Of a stretch of DNA of 64,000 nt, positions 462-5,876 are shown in pieces; position 1 is the first letter of the stretch; every line of letters starts with the position of its first letter. Made by a program: the position numbers and the translations under genes. Origin of the DNA: Clostridiales bacterium (GTDB lineage: Bacteria; Bacillota; Clostridia; Christensenellales; Borkfalkiaceae). Below the pieces are notes generated by a model that was not told where the DNA came from, did no database searches, and saw only the letters and a list, made by a program, of their open reading frames with translations. The stretch covers positions 1 to 64,000 of the forward strand of contig SVIF01000001.1 in NCBI GenBank assembly GCA_015069615.1, written 5' to 3'.

Positions 462-1454
462 TCAGTCCTTTCCGTAAATGCTCCTATATTTTTTGAGAGC
501 AAAATAGTAATAGTTACGCATAAATATACCCAGCTTTTTGGGCGAAAGAATGAGAGCCTCCGAGCCGAAACGCTCAAAATAATAAAGCACTTGATTTGCA
601 GAACAATTGAATATATAAACGTCACCGTCAATTTCCATTGGAATTGGTCTGTAAAGATAAATTTTATCGAAAAGTTCGCGTCCTTTTGCGCTTAACTGAA
701 CACGTATCGGCTCGTTATCCGTTGAATAAATTGGATATTGAGCGCCGGCCGCAATTTGACGAGCAAACATACTCTGTGATTCTTCCGGGATCTCTGCGTT
801 TTTAGCAAGAAGAGAAACCGTTTTAATTTTAGCTAGACGCAACGTTCTGTTTTTCTTATCACTAAAGCAAAGTACATAGTTGAAAAGTTCATCCTTGGCA
901 GGCTCTATTGCGTATACGGAAACATTATTATAAACATGTCCGTTATCTAGCGAAATGCAGATCTGTAATCCTTTTTTAACGCCACTAACCAGAAGCTCGT
1001 AATTATGTTTATGAATAATCTTTTCTCTCTCGTTTTTTAATTTTTTAGAGTATGCTATGAAAAGCCTTCGGTAAAATGATGAAATCGCTTCGTTTTTCAA
1101 CAAAACATTCTCTATGTATACAGTCACAGACTCTGACGATTTTGTCGGTTTGAATGAGAGCGCGACACTTTTTCCTAAATTCTCTTCCTTTTCTCTCTTG
1201 GTTATTGCATTCATAACCTCAAAGAAAGCTTCTTTTGCATATTTTTCCGGAATAACGGATAGCGCTCCTTTTATGCTTTCACGCAAACTCTCATCATCGG
1301 CAGAAAACTTTTCATAAAAATTTATTACAAGGATATTTATAAATGCGTTAAGGTTTTCTTCTCCTGATGGCTTCAATATTCTAAAATCCTTTGCGTCTTT
1401 ACGTAAAAGTTCGTATATTTTCTCCGGAACACTAACTTTTATCTTTTCTGTCAT
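462..1454 (-). CDS. RHH-WYL domain transcriptional regulator
   Basis: A 330-aa protein. The first 25 residues (KIKVSVPEKIYELLRKDAKD) look like a ribbon-helix-helix DNA-binding segment. The middle (about 150-250) fits a WYL ligand-sensing barrel. The end (VLYYFERFGSEALILSPKK, about 285-305) fits the WYL C-terminal extension, which pairs with an 'RFG-x-A-x-x-LSP' motif. WYL proteins are usually regulators that sense nucleotide or nucleic-acid ligands and often control defence genes. The start is set by AGAGGTG seven bases upstream. It is divergent from the AAA+ gene, and its own promoter spacer carries a copy of a repeated 10-mer, so autoregulation and control of the facing operon are likely. 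Product class fairly sure; ligand unknown. Confidence 0.75.
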   Translation of the reverse strand: MTEKIKVSVPEKIYELLRKDAKDFRILKPSGEENLNAFINILVINFYEKFSADDESLRESIKGALSVIPEKYAKEAFFEVMNAITKREKEENLGKSVALSFKPTKSSESVTVYIENVLLKNEAISSFYRRLFIAYSKKLKNEREKIIHKHNYELLVSGVKKGLQICISLDNGHVYNNVSVYAIEPAKDELFNYVLCFSDKKNRTLRLAKIKTVSLLAKNAEIPEESQSMFARQIAAGAQYPIYSTDNEPIRVQLSAKGRELFDKIYLYRPIPMEIDGDVYIFNCSANQVLYYFERFGSEALILSPKKLGIFMRNYYYFALKKYRSIYGKD

Positions 1455-1476
1455 TTTTAATCACCTCTTCTATATT

Positions 1477-1505
1477 ATGGTACACTAAAAGTGGTCATAT
1501 GTCAA
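1477..1505 (-). promoter_or_regulatory. promoter of the WYL regulator
   Basis: On the minus strand TTGACA (1500-1505) is followed by a 17-bp spacer and TACCAT (1477-1482), 23 bp ahead of the start codon. The operator-like 10-mer AGTGGTCATA (1490-1499) sits entirely in the spacer, so a bound repressor would block polymerase. Confidence 0.7.
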
Positions 1506-1555
1506 GGAAAATATTGTATTTTTCTTTTGATTTCATTATATTTTTAGTGGTCATA
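1490..1555. promoter_or_regulatory. paired operator-like direct repeats
   Basis: AGTGGTCATA occurs at 1490-1499 and again at 1546-1555 in the same orientation, with similar flanks (CTAAA or TTTTT before it). One lies in the WYL promoter spacer. The other lies 20 bp upstream of the -35 box of the AAA+ promoter. That layout suits one regulator controlling both directions, most simply the RHH-WYL protein. Confidence 0.6.
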
Positions 1556-1575
1556 AATTTTCTGCAAACTGTCAA

Positions 1576-1604
1576 TTGAAGATACTCAAATTTTGCGGTA
1601 TAAT
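1576..1604 (+). promoter_or_regulatory. promoter of the AAA+ operon
   Basis: TTGAAG (1576-1581), a 17-bp spacer and a perfect TATAAT (1599-1604) lie 31 bp before the chosen ATG of the AAA+ gene. The longer reading frame that opens at 1576 starts inside this -35 box, which argues against it as the real start. Confidence 0.8.
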
Positions 1605-1635
1605 GTTGGTGACAAAATACAAGGAGGTCACTGAA

Positions 1636-3000
1636 ATGAGTGCATTTGACAGAATAGCGGGTTATAAGAAGGAAAAAGAAGAGCTTATGGCTCTTGCCGA
1701 AATTTTCAAGAACAGAAAAAAATATGAACTGAAAGGAGCTACACTACCAAAAGGAATTATCCTTTACGGTCCTGCCGGAACAGGGAAAACGCTTTTTTCA
1801 GAAGTTTTGGCACAGGAATGCTCCCTCAAGAAAATTAACATAAGCCTCTCGGATTCCGCATCAGAAGGCAATATTTGCCGCAGAATAAGAAAAGCTTTTC
1901 TGCAAGGAGCGAAAGGTAGAACCCCAACTATGATATTCTTTGATGAATTAGATAAGGTTTTGCCCAACGAAAGAGAGGAATATTATACCGATAGGTCTAA
2001 AACAATTCTTGCTCAGTTGCTTACGCTTATCGATGGGATGGAAAAGATAAACAACATAGTATTTGTAGCAACGTGCAACGATTACTACGCACTCCCCGAA
2101 AGCATAACAAGGCCGGGAAGGTTTGATAAGAAGATTTGTTTGGATCTGCCCGATTACGCGGCAAGAGCAGCTATACTCGATATGTACATGAAGGCATCGC
2201 CTACCAAGTTTGAGATGTCTGCCGATAGTATTGCGAAGTTGACCGGAGAATTCTCTCCTGCCGCCCTTAAGACTTTAGTAAACGATTGCATTCTCGTATC
2301 TGACGAAAACAACTACATATCCGAGGATATAATACGTGAGAAAATAATCGAAATCAAAGAAGAGGATTTGCCTACCGAAAGAAGCGAGCAATCCTACAAC
2401 ATTGACGCAGTCAGGAACATCGGAGCCTTCGTAGTCGCAAGAACTTACAGTAATAGCGATTATGTCCTTACGGTAGAAGAAAACAAAGTTTGCAACGGAT
2501 TCTTGGATGCTATTATAAACAGTGTGGACTACGATTATGATGATGACGATGACTACTACGATGAAGATGACGACGATGACAAAGAAACAAGCACTTCATA
2601 CTCACTTTGCTCAAAAAACGATTTACTCGCTGCGATAACGGCACTTCTCGGAGGATTAGCCGCAGAGGAGCTTATATTCAACAAAATATATGACAATTTA
2701 AAGGACAGCTTAGATGCCGTAGACGATATAGTTTTTAAGATGGCTGCTTGCGGAATGCTTGGGTTAAAGCTTCACTACAACGAATACCGTGAATATAAAT
2801 ATTCAGAAAAGCTCCGCGAGCGATTGGAGGAAGCCTTCTTAAGGATAAAAGAAGAGTGCTACGAAAAAGCCAAGGAAATCGTCAATAAAAACGAAGTGTT
2901 AATTAAAAAACTCGTTCCTATTCTTATTAAGCGCAAGTCCATAGAAAAGAACGAGTGCGAGGCACTGATAGAAGAGCTCGGCGGCATAGTATCTAATTAA
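1636..3000 (+). CDS. soluble FtsH-like AAA+ ATPase with a degenerate peptidase domain
   Basis: A 454-aa protein. The ATG at 1636 has AAGGAGG eight bases upstream. The AAA+ module is complete: Walker A GPAGTGKT (about 45-52), Walker B IFFDELDK (about 99-106), sensor-1 ATCND (about 145), and RPGRFD arginine finger (about 159-164). The C-terminal part keeps the FtsH M41 helical landmark LGGLAAEELIF (about 338). However, the zinc motif HExxH of FtsH is replaced by RNIGA (about 259-263), so proteolysis is unlikely. There is no N-terminal transmembrane hairpin. An acidic run of Asp, Glu and Tyr (about 300-315) is inserted in the peptidase-like half. It is probably a cytosolic remodelling ATPase, cotranscribed with the next two genes and opposed to a WYL regulator. 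Partner and substrate unknown. Confidence 0.8.
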   Translation: MSAFDRIAGYKKEKEELMALAEIFKNRKKYELKGATLPKGIILYGPAGTGKTLFSEVLAQECSLKKINISLSDSASEGNICRRIRKAFLQGAKGRTPTMIFFDELDKVLPNEREEYYTDRSKTILAQLLTLIDGMEKINNIVFVATCNDYYALPESITRPGRFDKKICLDLPDYAARAAILDMYMKASPTKFEMSADSIAKLTGEFSPAALKTLVNDCILVSDENNYISEDIIREKIIEIKEEDLPTERSEQSYNIDAVRNIGAFVVARTYSNSDYVLTVEENKVCNGFLDAIINSVDYDYDDDDDYYDEDDDDDKETSTSYSLCSKNDLLAAITALLGGLAAEELIFNKIYDNLKDSLDAVDDIVFKMAACGMLGLKLHYNEYREYKYSEKLRERLEEAFLRIKEECYEKAKEIVNKNEVLIKKLVPILIKRKSIEKNECEALIEELGGIVSN

Positions 3001-3037
3001 AACAATAAAATTTTTCACGCAGACAAAGGAGAAAATT

Positions 3038-3298
3038 ATGTTTTTAGCAAAAGATTGGGAAATGTTTTATACCGACTCACATAAATCATCCATGGAGGAG
3101 TATTTGGTTGATCAAATCTCTATTAATAAAGTCAACAAAAGATATATTTTGGATATAGATGCCAACGATTTAGTCACAGACGGATATGATGGCGAAATGA
3201 ACGAGGTAAACTCCATGTATGTTAGCAGATTCATTTTCGATATAATAGTGCAAGGAATTAAAGAACGCGGATTTAAGGAGGCAAAATATGTACGATAA
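3038..3298 (+). CDS. small acidic hypothetical protein
   Basis: 86 aa, start preceded by AAAGGAGAAAATT. No family recognised. It is acidic, with aromatic residues near the start (DWEMFYTD) and no signal peptide or membrane segment. The last codons overlap the start of the next gene by 11 bp (ATG at 3288), and the AAA+ gene ends 37 bp upstream, so the three genes are almost certainly one transcript. It may be an adaptor or substrate-recognition partner of the AAA+ protein. That idea rests on position alone. Confidence 0.7.
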   Translation: MFLAKDWEMFYTDSHKSSMEEYLVDQISINKVNKRYILDIDANDLVTDGYDGEMNEVNSMYVSRFIFDIIVQGIKERGFKEAKYVR

Positions 3299-4208
3299 AG
3301 ATCTCGAGAAGCAAAGTTTTTCGGCGCTTGCAGAGGATGCAATTTACTTTATAAGTTACGTGGCAAATGAAGCGAAAATTCACTTCGATTTAAGCGAGGA
3401 AAGCGAGCTTGAAAAAACGTTTGACAGCTTTGAAAAACGCTTGCGAGAAAAATCAAAATTCAATAGTGAGCTTATGCAGCTTTTATACAAAGTTCAAAAA
3501 TCTCGAAAGCTTCTAAAAAAGCTACACGAAACATGGGAAAGCGGAGAGGCGCGAGAGGACGTTATTCGCGCTATCAGAGGAGAAGCAAGCTATGAAGAGC
3601 TTGAAGCAATTCTCGAAACAACAAACAAGATAGGCACATACTATAACTATCAAGAAATTCGCGGTGTTTTGCTAAGAAAAAAGAAAGGTGAATTCGGCGA
3701 TGAATATTTCAAGTCCTGGCTCATACTTCTTGCCAGTTCCCTAAGTTGCGAGAAATACGAATTTCTTTCCAATTACTTTGACGCGTGCTCGTTTTACGAT
3801 AACTACAACGATAAAACACTTTCGGAAATGCTGGCAACACTCAAGGATTTTGATTACAAGCTGGCACACGAGAATTTTATCGACGCACACAAGCGCGACA
3901 AGCTTCAAGTGATTTATCTTCGCCATATTTTATTCAACGACACCTTGGATTCAAAAATTTTTAAGGCTTATTTCGTGGACTATAAAAAGAAACGCTTCGA
4001 CGTACGAATTATTGACGATGCTCTGTTTGATTACAAAGATGAGATTATGTATTGCGATATACTGTCTCATCACTTGGACGAAGACGGAGATTATATCGAC
4101 CCGAACGATGAATATTCTTTCGAACCTGCTGAATTACCCGAGGAAGCACGGCTTCATAACATATTTTACGTTGAAGAGTGGACCTGCGATCATAGCTTAT
4201 TACTATAA
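3288..4208 (+). CDS. hypothetical alpha-helical protein of the AAA+ cassette
   Basis: 306 aa, starting inside the end of the previous gene, with GGAGG just upstream. The first 110 residues are charged and probably helical (Lys/Glu-rich, heptad-like leucines around 65-80). The rest is rich in Tyr, Phe and Asp with no motif I recognise. There is no membrane segment. It is the last gene of the WYL/AAA+ cassette. The stop at 4206 may come from a frameshift, because coding-like sequence continues in another frame to 4390. Function unknown. Translational coupling suggests a fixed stoichiometry with the 86-aa protein. Confidence 0.7.
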   Translation: MYDKDLEKQSFSALAEDAIYFISYVANEAKIHFDLSEESELEKTFDSFEKRLREKSKFNSELMQLLYKVQKSRKLLKKLHETWESGEAREDVIRAIRGEASYEELEAILETTNKIGTYYNYQEIRGVLLRKKKGEFGDEYFKSWLILLASSLSCEKYEFLSNYFDACSFYDNYNDKTLSEMLATLKDFDYKLAHENFIDAHKRDKLQVIYLRHILFNDTLDSKIFKAYFVDYKKKRFDVRIIDDALFDYKDEIMYCDILSHHLDEDGDYIDPNDEYSFEPAELPEEARLHNIFYVEEWTCDHSLLL

Positions 4209-4390
4209 TCAGCGATTTATATTTACTTTTTTTGCAAACAATGCTAGGGCCACACGGAAAGGCCGTTCAAGTATATGGTTATGGAGAGGTACTTGGTGAT
4301 TATGATAGTTTTGATGACTTGCTTCTTAATTACAAAATTGACGGTAAACCTTTGAGCGAACTTATAAAAGACCTTGAATACGGAGATTAA
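4196..4390 (+). pseudogene. coding-like tail in another frame after the 306-aa gene
   Basis: Past the stop of the 306-aa gene another frame stays open for 65 codons. It reads like real protein: GPHGKAVQVYGYGEVLGDYD, then SFDDLLLNYKIDGKPLSELI, then KDLEYGD and stop. No ribosome site or start belongs to it, and a TAG at 4193-4195 precedes it in frame. Either a one-base indel near 4196 split a gene of about 370 codons, or this is the 3' remnant of a second gene. It stops 18 bp before the tRNA-like segment. Confidence 0.5.
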
Positions 4391-4517: not shown

Positions 4518-4686
4518 ACGAGGAACGCAGAACCTCCTCGCGGCCGTGCTTTGCTTTTCTTACAGCACTACCTAAGACGGCCGCGGGAACGTTTTTCTCG
4601 ACGCGCAAAGCCGACGAGAAAAACTTCATGGCGCGCGAGATGAACGCACAGGAAACGCGCGCCTGTTTAATTGTCCTCTTACCCGC
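4518..4686. repeat. 169-bp multi-hairpin repeat, copy 2
   Basis: Nearly identical to 1-169, with the same four stem-loops and the same ending in the tRNA 3' sequence. Here it follows the tRNA terminator directly, suggesting the repeat normally sits between tRNA-Leu and the next att core. Reading frames across it have no ribosome site. Confidence 0.85.
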
Positions 4687-4812: not shown

Positions 4813-5472
4813 TTAATTAAATCTTTTGTCCGTAATAATTCCAAATACATACGAGGGTCCTCTGACTTCTCTTATTTGACGCAATTCAGTTGGACTAATT
4901 TCTACTGCTCTTGCAAAATTCGATAAATGGATGGTGTAATTTGCTCTGCTCGGCTTTATGTTGTTTTCACCTACAAATTCATAAGTATAGGACTTTCCCG
5001 TGACGGTATAAAAAGTTTCACCCTCCAATTCTTTTAATTTGCTCTTAATATCAACCTTCATTTTCGATTTCTCCGTTTCTATATTGATTTGATAATTAAT
5101 TCCCGTTTTTATATGCGTTCCGTCTGTCGTAAAACCATATCTTTTCAGTCTTTTGATCCAATGACTATCACTTTCACCGTTGCGTTTGTTTTTTATAGTG
5201 TTCCAAAGGCTTTTCCTTGTTTGCTGTAGTTTCTCCAAGCTACGCTGCTGACCTTCTTTTAATCTTTCGATAAGAGGTTTATGATTTGAAAATCTCTTTT
5301 GTTCTTTTATCTTACGTGCAATTAAAAAAGGAGAAGCAAATAAAATGCCAAGCAAGAAAAGGCCGAATGCGCTATCACCGCTATTATATGAATATGTTCG
5401 TTTTAATACTTGACCGCCGTTACCATTACTGACCCATCGCTGCTTTTTTGATGTGTATTTATGACCGTACAT
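4813..5472 (-). CDS. hypothetical membrane-anchored protein
   Basis: 219 aa, family not recognised. One hydrophobic segment (FGLFLLGILFASPFLIA, about 36-52) follows a short basic N-terminus with a Gly/Ser/Tyr-rich stretch. Next comes a Lys/Arg/Gln-rich, probably coiled-coil segment (about 57-100), then a mixed C-terminal domain with several beta-like stretches (TFYTVTGKSYTYEFVGENN). It is likely a cytoplasmic domain held at the membrane by a single pass. It lies 17 bp behind the DUF7662-like gene and is probably cotranscribed. No function can be assigned. Confidence 0.65.
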   Translation of the reverse strand: MYGHKYTSKKQRWVSNGNGGQVLKRTYSYNSGDSAFGLFLLGILFASPFLIARKIKEQKRFSNHKPLIERLKEGQQRSLEKLQQTRKSLWNTIKNKRNGESDSHWIKRLKRYGFTTDGTHIKTGINYQINIETEKSKMKVDIKSKLKELEGETFYTVTGKSYTYEFVGENNIKPSRANYTIHLSNFARAVEISPTELRQIREVRGPSYVFGIITDKRFN

Positions 5473-5489
5473 CTCTAATCTCCGTAAGA

Positions 5490-5876
5490 TTATATCTGTA
5501 AGTTCTTTTCGAAAATCACAGTACTTTCTTCTATATCAACCCTTGTTCGATATCCAATTGAAAGCCAACTCAAAGCGTATGAATGTGTTTCAGAGTTTGA
5601 CCAATATGCTCTCATATGCTTATGTGCCGACTCCGGGAGTGTAAAACCTAATATTTTCTCTATTTCGGGATATGTTAAGATTATTCTGTCAGCCTTCGAT
5701 TTCAATAGGTACTCAGTCAACCTTCGGTATTTGGACGTAATATTTTTATGTGATATTTCTGTTGTATCAGATAAATTAGTACATACTGAACTTGATTGGG
5801 TTTCTAACTTCGCAACTTTTGTTTCTAAAACTTGTATTCGTTCGAGTAATTCCAAAATTATACGTTCGTAATTCAT
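5490..5876 (-). CDS. coiled-coil plus DUF7662-like winged-helix protein
   Basis: 128 aa. Residues 5-27 form a leucine-zipper-like heptad run (ILELLERIQVLETKVAKLE). The remainder, starting at KYRRLTEYLLKSK (about 49), matches my memory of the DUF7662 winged-helix fold. That fold has 'Y-x-x-L-x-x-YL', 'TYPEIEKILGFTLPESAHKH', 'W-S-N' and 'W-L-x-x-G', and often occurs in phage or restriction-associated proteins. A perfect promoter and AGGAGG precede it. It could bind DNA as a dimer through the zipper. Fold assignment moderate, role unknown. Confidence 0.65.
   Translation of the reverse strand: MNYERIILELLERIQVLETKVAKLETQSSSVCTNLSDTTEISHKNITSKYRRLTEYLLKSKADRIILTYPEIEKILGFTLPESAHKHMRAYWSNSETHSYALSWLSIGYRTRVDIEESTVIFEKNLQI

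Follow-up and report, generated by a model that had tools for sequence, protein, structure and literature searches.

RspWYL1 (PDB 6oaw), an accessory protein at type VI-D CRISPR-Cas13d loci, combines ribbon-helix-helix (RHH) motifs with a WYL domain and a C-terminal domain that dimerises; it binds single-stranded RNA (ssRNA), which it prefers over double-stranded DNA (dsDNA) (PMC6547453). FtsH relatives with an inactivated protease (pseudo-FtsH) are known from chloroplasts (PMC11266112), and FtsH-type ATPases have been described in MoxR-vWA systems (PMC7159879). We describe a cassette in which a WYL1-like regulator faces a soluble pseudo-FtsH, located at the start of a stretch of DNA from a Clostridiales bacterium—the first 64 kb of contig C14 (SVIF01000001.1; hereafter, the window) of assembly GCA_015069615.1, which comprises 1.43 Mb in 41 contigs and is 86% complete. 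An initial annotation of this DNA had proposed four genes in a divergent arrangement, and four open reading frames are indeed present:

462-1454, minus strand: P0001, a WYL1-like regulator of 330 amino acids (RHH-type N-terminus, WYL domain, C-terminal dimerisation-type domain)
1636-3000, plus strand: P0002, a soluble FtsH-like AAA+ ATPase of 454 amino acids with an inactivated M41 domain
3038-3298, plus strand: P0003, a small domain of 86 amino acids with a DGYD...SRxxFDII motif, an optional partner
3288-4208, plus strand: P0004, a helical protein of 306 amino acids

The regulator faces the ATPase across 181 bp. The translational linkage suggested for the three plus-strand genes holds for P0003 and P0004, whose frames overlap by 11 bp, but not for P0002 and P0003, which are separated by 37 bp and have a ribosome-binding site each. 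Likewise, the span first proposed ran on to position 4390, whereas the last of the four frames ends at 4208; a further frame at 4232-4390 (about 50 amino acids) had no match in a Pfam-type family search and is not counted as a gene. The assignment of P0001 as a WYL protein is borne out by a PADLOC WYL match (E 2.8e-6) and by alignment of its family profile (A1) to 6oaw (E 2e-8), which pairs profile positions 123-317 with residues 160-381. This alignment takes in the WYL domain and the WYL1-type C-terminal domain and begins in the second RHH region; the N-terminus of P0001 is RHH-like by sequence pattern.

A scan of Genome Taxonomy Database (GTDB) genomes with the P0001 family returned 68 loci, and a maximum-likelihood tree of the regulators gathered 35 rows, the window included, into one clade (support 100/99). 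One of these loci lies at a contig end and could not be judged; among the 34 that are readable, 31 have a pseudo-FtsH gene divergent from the regulator, in differing gene surroundings (the count includes L051, where only the start of the pseudo-FtsH is visible at the contig edge). The three others (L055, L057, L059) have no pseudo-FtsH, the regulator facing a P0003-type protein and an acidic-tailed protein of about 330 amino acids (c24)—an arrangement that would represent an alternative output from the same operator. At L050, L052 and L073 the regulator and the ATPase are separated by an extra small gene. The divergent pairing of a WYL regulator with a soluble pseudo-FtsH is real, recurrent and co-regulated, and, as had been suspected, this unit matches no catalogued system. 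The search for co-occurrence also showed that the four genes do not form a constant set: the regulator–ATPase pair recurs throughout the clade, whereas P0003 and P0004 are missing from most loci, including that of the closest relative (L048), and a P0003-type protein replaces the ATPase in three. Matches to P0001 in Fusobacteriaceae were rejected as members of the pair, no ATPase adjoining them where annotation exists. At two loci, L060 and L074, the gap between the divergent genes contains a tRNA-Lys gene, immediately ahead of the ATPase gene.

The second component of the pair, P0002, matches the Pfam families AAA (8e-26) and Peptidase_M41 (1.5e-11), both over cut-off, and reaches 182 bits against the NCBI FtsH family, where 600 are required. 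The zinc motif HEAGH of the FtsH encoded in the same genome aligns to RNIGA in P0002; HExxH is absent from every WYL-linked ortholog in the alignment, and the family shows no conservation around the third zinc ligand. The aromatic-hydrophobic pore loop (F/Y-V-G; ELYVGVGA in the genome's own FtsH) is missing in all 26 aligned orthologs (alignment A6). Judged from these alignments, P0002 is without all zinc ligands, the catalytic glutamate and the pore loop, and its protease is dead. By the same measure the ATPase motifs—Walker A and B, sensor 1 and the arginine fingers—are kept, K51 and T52 (Walker A), D103 and E104 (Walker B), N148 (sensor 1) and R162 (second arginine finger) being invariant in the 26 orthologs. 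P0002 has no transmembrane segment: its sequence starts at the AAA domain, whereas the genome's own FtsH is about 160 residues longer at the N-terminus, with two hydrophobic segments, so that the membrane anchor is missing. The early description of P0002 as a soluble AAA+ protein with an inactivated protease half was therefore accurate. The relevant positions are:

1852-1875, plus strand: position of the FtsH pore loop, here an SDSASEGN region, the motif being absent in the 26 aligned orthologs
2413-2427, plus strand: RNIGA replacing the zinc-binding HEAGH of FtsH, placed by alignment
2533-2601, plus strand: acidic, probably disordered loop in the pseudo-M41 domain, residues 300-322, with a predicted local distance difference test score (pLDDT) under 50

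Despite its dead protease, P0002 is kept by selection, as argued by a proportion of nonsynonymous differences (pN) of 0.094 at a saturated synonymous proportion (pS) of 0.80 in comparison with L048, and by a nonsynonymous-to-synonymous rate ratio (dN/dS) of 0.125 for the pseudo-FtsH pair of L082 and L077; by these estimates, purifying selection on the pseudo-FtsH is strong. Three distant relatives (in genomes G313, G314 and G207), which have no such WYL regulator adjoining, show HQVGH or HMLGH, with the histidines kept and the glutamate lost. In a tree with the true FtsH proteins at the opposite end, this fits a stepwise loss from HExxH through HQVGH/HMLGH to RNxG, in which the WYL-linked clade would be the fully inactivated end. 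Two orthologs depart further from the common form. One, at L050:5586-6950, also lacks Walker A and Walker B (GEKGVGKQ, MILLKGLD), was excluded from A6, and is probably neither ATPase nor protease; in the other, at L054:6268-7839 (the same locus as G233), a pseudo-FtsH of 523 amino acids runs at its C-terminal part into transporter-like hydrophobic segments, for which fusion, deletion or an assembly join are possible alternatives.

What ties this pair to RNA repair is the regulator and its putative operator. Outside the pseudo-FtsH clade, the same regulator family faces RtcB, DUF2828/DUF7788 (vWA-like) or TROVE in 23 of 30 loci, the 30 being the readable loci of the distant group in which a regulator was called; at L079-L081 it faces a 721-amino-acid protein without a family. 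One locus, L063, has the regulator together with three genes on a shared strand, for pseudo-FtsH, DUF2828 and RtcB. Two boxes of the form TG(A/C)CC(A/C)C (TGMCCMC) are common to the intergenic regions of the pseudo-FtsH loci and of the WYL loci with RtcB, DUF2828 or TROVE, with a spacing of 44-46 or 54-57 bp—a difference of one helical turn—and with the second box 36-52 bp ahead of the regulator start. Of the intergenic regions, 27 of 33 in the pseudo-FtsH clade and 11 of 30 at the other WYL loci contain the box pair, compared with 0 of 100 dinucleotide shuffles; protein identity to P0001 is no more than 29-43% across the regulators of the two groups. In the window, the boxes and predicted promoters are placed as follows:

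1477-1505, minus strand: predicted regulator promoter, TTGACA-17-TACCAT
1491-1497, minus strand: operator box 2, TGACCAC, inside the 17-nucleotide spacer of the predicted regulator promoter
1547-1553, minus strand: operator box 1, TGACCAC, 56 bp from box 2 and centred at about -61 from the predicted P0002 transcription start
1576-1604, plus strand: predicted P0002 operon promoter, TTGAAG-17-TATAAT

The position of box 2 within the spacer of the regulator promoter suggests that P0001 represses itself. A box near -61 is in a position typical of activators, and box 1 points to activation of the P0002 operon. A genome-wide scan with the operator pattern gave only one exact match in the window's own genome, weaker matches being no commoner than in the reversed control; this speaks against a genome-wide regulon, and the switch is a local one.

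Several loci carry structured RNAs near these genes. Four of them contain a ROOL RNA (RF03087), with scores of 192-228 bits: in Solobacterium loci it separates the WYL regulator from RtcB (L103:4576-5145, L105:7187-7758, L115:4153-4723), and at L106:3887-4406 it separates the RtcB and DUF2828 genes. This places a large structured RNA within an apparent RNA-repair transcription unit. We know of no function for ROOL RNA, and no paper containing both ROOL RNA and RtcB was among the best matches listed in our literature search. In the gap between regulator and DUF2828 at two further loci (L095:7704-7769, L097:7736-7801) we found tRNA-like elements (partial RF00005), possibly tRNA mimics resembling Y RNA.

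The best single explanation of these observations, which we hold tentatively and place just short of probable, is that the cassette was acquired horizontally and serves a stress response, its basis being a nucleic-acid-sensing switch of the WYL1 type that controls a cytosolic, ATP-driven remodeller with optional adaptors. A P0001 dimer would bind both boxes, repressing its own gene and controlling the ATPase operon, probably as an activator. Its WYL and C-terminal half may sense RNA or RNA fragments, because the closest solved relative, RspWYL1, binds ssRNA and because related regulators run RtcB, DUF2828 and TROVE operons from the same boxes. The trigger would most likely be RNA damage or an insult to translation, for example from phage or from ribonuclease toxins. 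Once induced, the pseudo-FtsH would assemble in the cytosol into an ATP-driven ring that, without threading or degrading proteins, remodels protein or ribonucleoprotein (RNP) complexes or acts as a scaffold for them. P0003 and P0004 would serve as adaptors for its substrates or as effectors, open to addition, fusion or exchange. The cassette would then respond to RNA damage or stress, and the product under its control here would be an ATP-driven remodeller and not a protease, the RNA-damage part of this scheme being based on homology and the shared operator.

Several points weigh against the scheme. RtcB was not found in the window's own genome (86% complete), nor in four of the six other genomes with a pseudo-FtsH, and the RtcB copies that stand elsewhere in genomes G297 and G161 carry no operator pair. 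The link to RNA in Clostridia is an indirect one, made through regulator homology, operator identity and one combined locus; relatives are not independent samples, so the operator counts overstate the number of independent cases; and activation and repression by P0001 are not distinguishable from sequence. On balance, the evidence points more towards an RNA-damage or RNA-repair stress circuit than towards a demonstrated defence system. A more specific version is possible, though doubtful: that the cassette is an RNA-damage-triggered stress or immune module of a new class, in which a WYL1-like RNA sensor switches on a doubly degenerate soluble FtsH ring with adaptors of the P0003/P0004 type, to remodel damaged RNPs or stalled complexes in place of RtcB, DUF2828, TROVE and ROOL RNA.

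The genomic setting bears on the strongest of the other explanations. Cassette DNA has a GC (guanine plus cytosine) content of 38%, compared with 50% in the remaining window, and lies below every other 3.9-kb stretch tested there (the lowest being 44%). Three features mark its edges:

1-169: upstream copy of a 169-bp direct repeat, at the contig start
4417-4474, plus strand: 58-nucleotide 3' remnant of a tRNA-Leu gene, 91% identical to the same genome's tRNA-Leu(CAG)
4518-4686: downstream copy of the 169-bp direct repeat, 97% identical to the upstream copy

The start of the window, and of the contig, falls inside the upstream repeat copy. The tRNA-Leu(CAG) genes to which the remnant is 91% identical stand elsewhere in the genome, as three tandem copies spaced by about 205 bp (G000:C33:24610-25036). 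The cassette looks like an element inserted beside a tRNA-Leu end, and horizontal acquisition forms part of the tentative explanation given above. The idea of a tRNA-associated island survives in this form—a tRNA remnant and direct repeats—but no intact tRNA gene is present in the window, and no integrase was identified among the genes examined. As a rule for the family, location beside a tRNA or in a defence island is not supported: a tRNA lies within 3 kb in only 10 of the 34 relatives, and neighbouring genes are mostly housekeeping genes. Beyond the downstream repeat (4813-5876) are two minus-strand genes, for a 219-amino-acid protein with a weak Csx1 match (1e-5) and a 128-amino-acid DUF7662 protein (1.5e-14).

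Foreign GC content is also what a dedicated anti-phage system might show, one in which the WYL regulator silences the module until infection and the ATPase, with P0003 and P0004, stops phage multiplication or causes cell death. Defence genes are often found under the guard of WYL regulators (PMC4012209; PMC9122601), the close regulator–ATPase pair is patchily spread (6 of 396 genomes of the order), its partners vary, and PADLOC IetA models match the AAA domain (2e-22). Set against this, defence matches are only scattered among the largely housekeeping flanks of the 34 loci, no nuclease, NADase or membrane effector was recognised in the cassette, and IMG/VR scans for close relatives of P0004, P0002 and P0001 (with profile A1) found none. 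Searches of plasmids with the cassette DNA, and of plasmids and phages with P0004, gave no match; P0002 matched only FtsH-type and other AAA ATPases there, over half its length. We regard an anti-phage system as a serious contender that is somewhat unlikely.

A different question is whether P0003 and P0004 belong to the system or are passengers unrelated to the regulator–ATPase pair, which would then be the whole functional unit; this view, compatible for the pair with the stress-response reading, we consider unlikely. It gains from the absence of both genes at L048 and most other loci, and from P0004, which has no full-length relative elsewhere and whose domain also stands alone in genome G226, without regulator or ATPase. 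On the contrary, the P0003 profile detects its family in no more than 2 of 396 genomes from the order, yet 8 of the 35 clade loci (window included) have a P0003-type domain adjoining the regulator: a separate relative at L050, L055, L057, L059 and L073 and, at L083 and L084, the C-terminal domain of c16 proteins. These c16 proteins (214-221 amino acids) directly follow the ATPase, with gaps of 11-12 bp, and their N-terminal domain matches residues ~89-174 of P0004 (hhalign probability 94.8, E 5e-8), so that P0004-like and P0003-like domains are fused in one protein downstream of the ATPase. That the two are adjacent in the window and fused at L083 and L084 is an argument for joint function, and on the sequences compared they are an optional module. 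Neither P0003 nor P0004 matches a known family, but both contain domains whose families are met repeatedly at these loci. The fused c16 protein gave a confident model (pLDDT 87.7) with no significant Foldseek match, and since a second look returned only common four-helix bundles, we propose no family for this fold. Weak P0004 matches at L006 and L007 were discarded, having no tblastn support or lying inside a frame resembling methionyl-tRNA synthetase.

The AlphaFold2 model of P0002, built with 26 orthologs (pLDDT 84.7), aligns with FtsH 3kds over 403 residues (Z 27.9, root-mean-square deviation 4.3) and finds FtsH 2ce7 in a structure search (E 5.6e-25); the modelled protein has the fold of the whole cytosolic part of FtsH. 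This resemblance would suit a modulator of the cell's real FtsH, with protease-dead subunits that join FtsH rings or compete with them and so reduce proteolysis under stress: the genome holds one active FtsH, chloroplast inactive FtsHi subunits form heteromeric complexes (PMC11266112), and Ycf2-FtsHi structures are among the structural matches. Such a role is nonetheless quite unlikely, given that P0002 has only about 26-35% identity to the genome's own FtsH, lacks the membrane anchor and the pore loop, carries a large acidic insert (33-57% aspartate or glutamate in this region across all orthologs), and belongs to a family that a long branch separates from the order's FtsH proteins. Very improbable is a selfish unit of toxin-antitoxin type in which P0004 (or the fused c16) would be a poison that the ATPase neutralises, as the small, mobile-looking cassette, overlapping P0003/P0004 frames and swappable partners might suggest, for most loci have the ATPase without a recognisable partner and no toxin fold was found.

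If the stress-response reading is correct, a single regulator family, acting at a single kind of landing site, drives RNA repair at some loci and a pseudo-FtsH at others, and both outputs should answer the same signal; were that signal broken RNA, the cassette would add an RNA-damage response in gut Clostridia, some of which are without RtcB. FtsH relatives that have lost protease and pore loop and are still strongly selected raise the question of what role an AAA+ ring has without threading, and the ROOL RNA between regulator and RtcB offers a possible handle on this large structured RNA.

The combination of a WYL1-like regulator and a soluble pseudo-FtsH, with an operator shared with RtcB, DUF2828 and TROVE loci, was not found in the literature searched, which did not cover the main RNA-repair survey, and the link between RtcB and WYL may be partly known. 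Among described systems, IetAS shares an AAA+ ATPase with the cassette, as the PADLOC matches indicate, but the NCBIfam IteA score is 67 against a cut-off of 510 and there is no protease among P0003 and P0004. MoxR-vWA-FtsH ternary systems (PMC7159879), which are predicted conflict systems, resemble it in having a partly degenerate FtsH-type ATPase; they differ in containing MoxR and vWA proteins and two FtsH-type ATPase domains per protein, whereas the cassette has neither MoxR nor vWA, and vWA-like DUF2828/DUF7788 occurs only in relatives such as L063. Closer to P0002 itself is chloroplast FtsHi of the Ycf2-FtsHi motor (PMC11266112, PMC8197885), likewise FtsH-derived, with an intact nucleotide site and a lost HExxH; the REAAV motif of FtsHi4 resembles RNIGA in kind, and 8xku and 8xqw are structural matches. 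Unlike these membrane-anchored organellar proteins, P0002 is bacterial, soluble and encoded by a single gene under a WYL regulator, with the pore loop gone and an acidic insert, and the two are presumably of independent origin. P0001 resembles RspWYL1 from the second RHH region through the WYL and C-terminal domains, and by pattern at its RHH-like N-terminus, but it is about 60 residues shorter, faces a pseudo-FtsH, has no Cas13d among its neighbours in the cassette and, in contrast to the preference of RspWYL1 for ssRNA over dsDNA, has conserved operator boxes suggestive of a DNA-binding regulator. Finally, the RtcB/Rsr (TROVE) operon of Salmonella is controlled by RtcR, a sigma-54 activator with a CARF domain (PMC7790460), whereas the window has a WYL1-like protein and no RtcB; the likeness lies in the relatives of P0001, which control RtcB, DUF2828 or TROVE from the same boxes.

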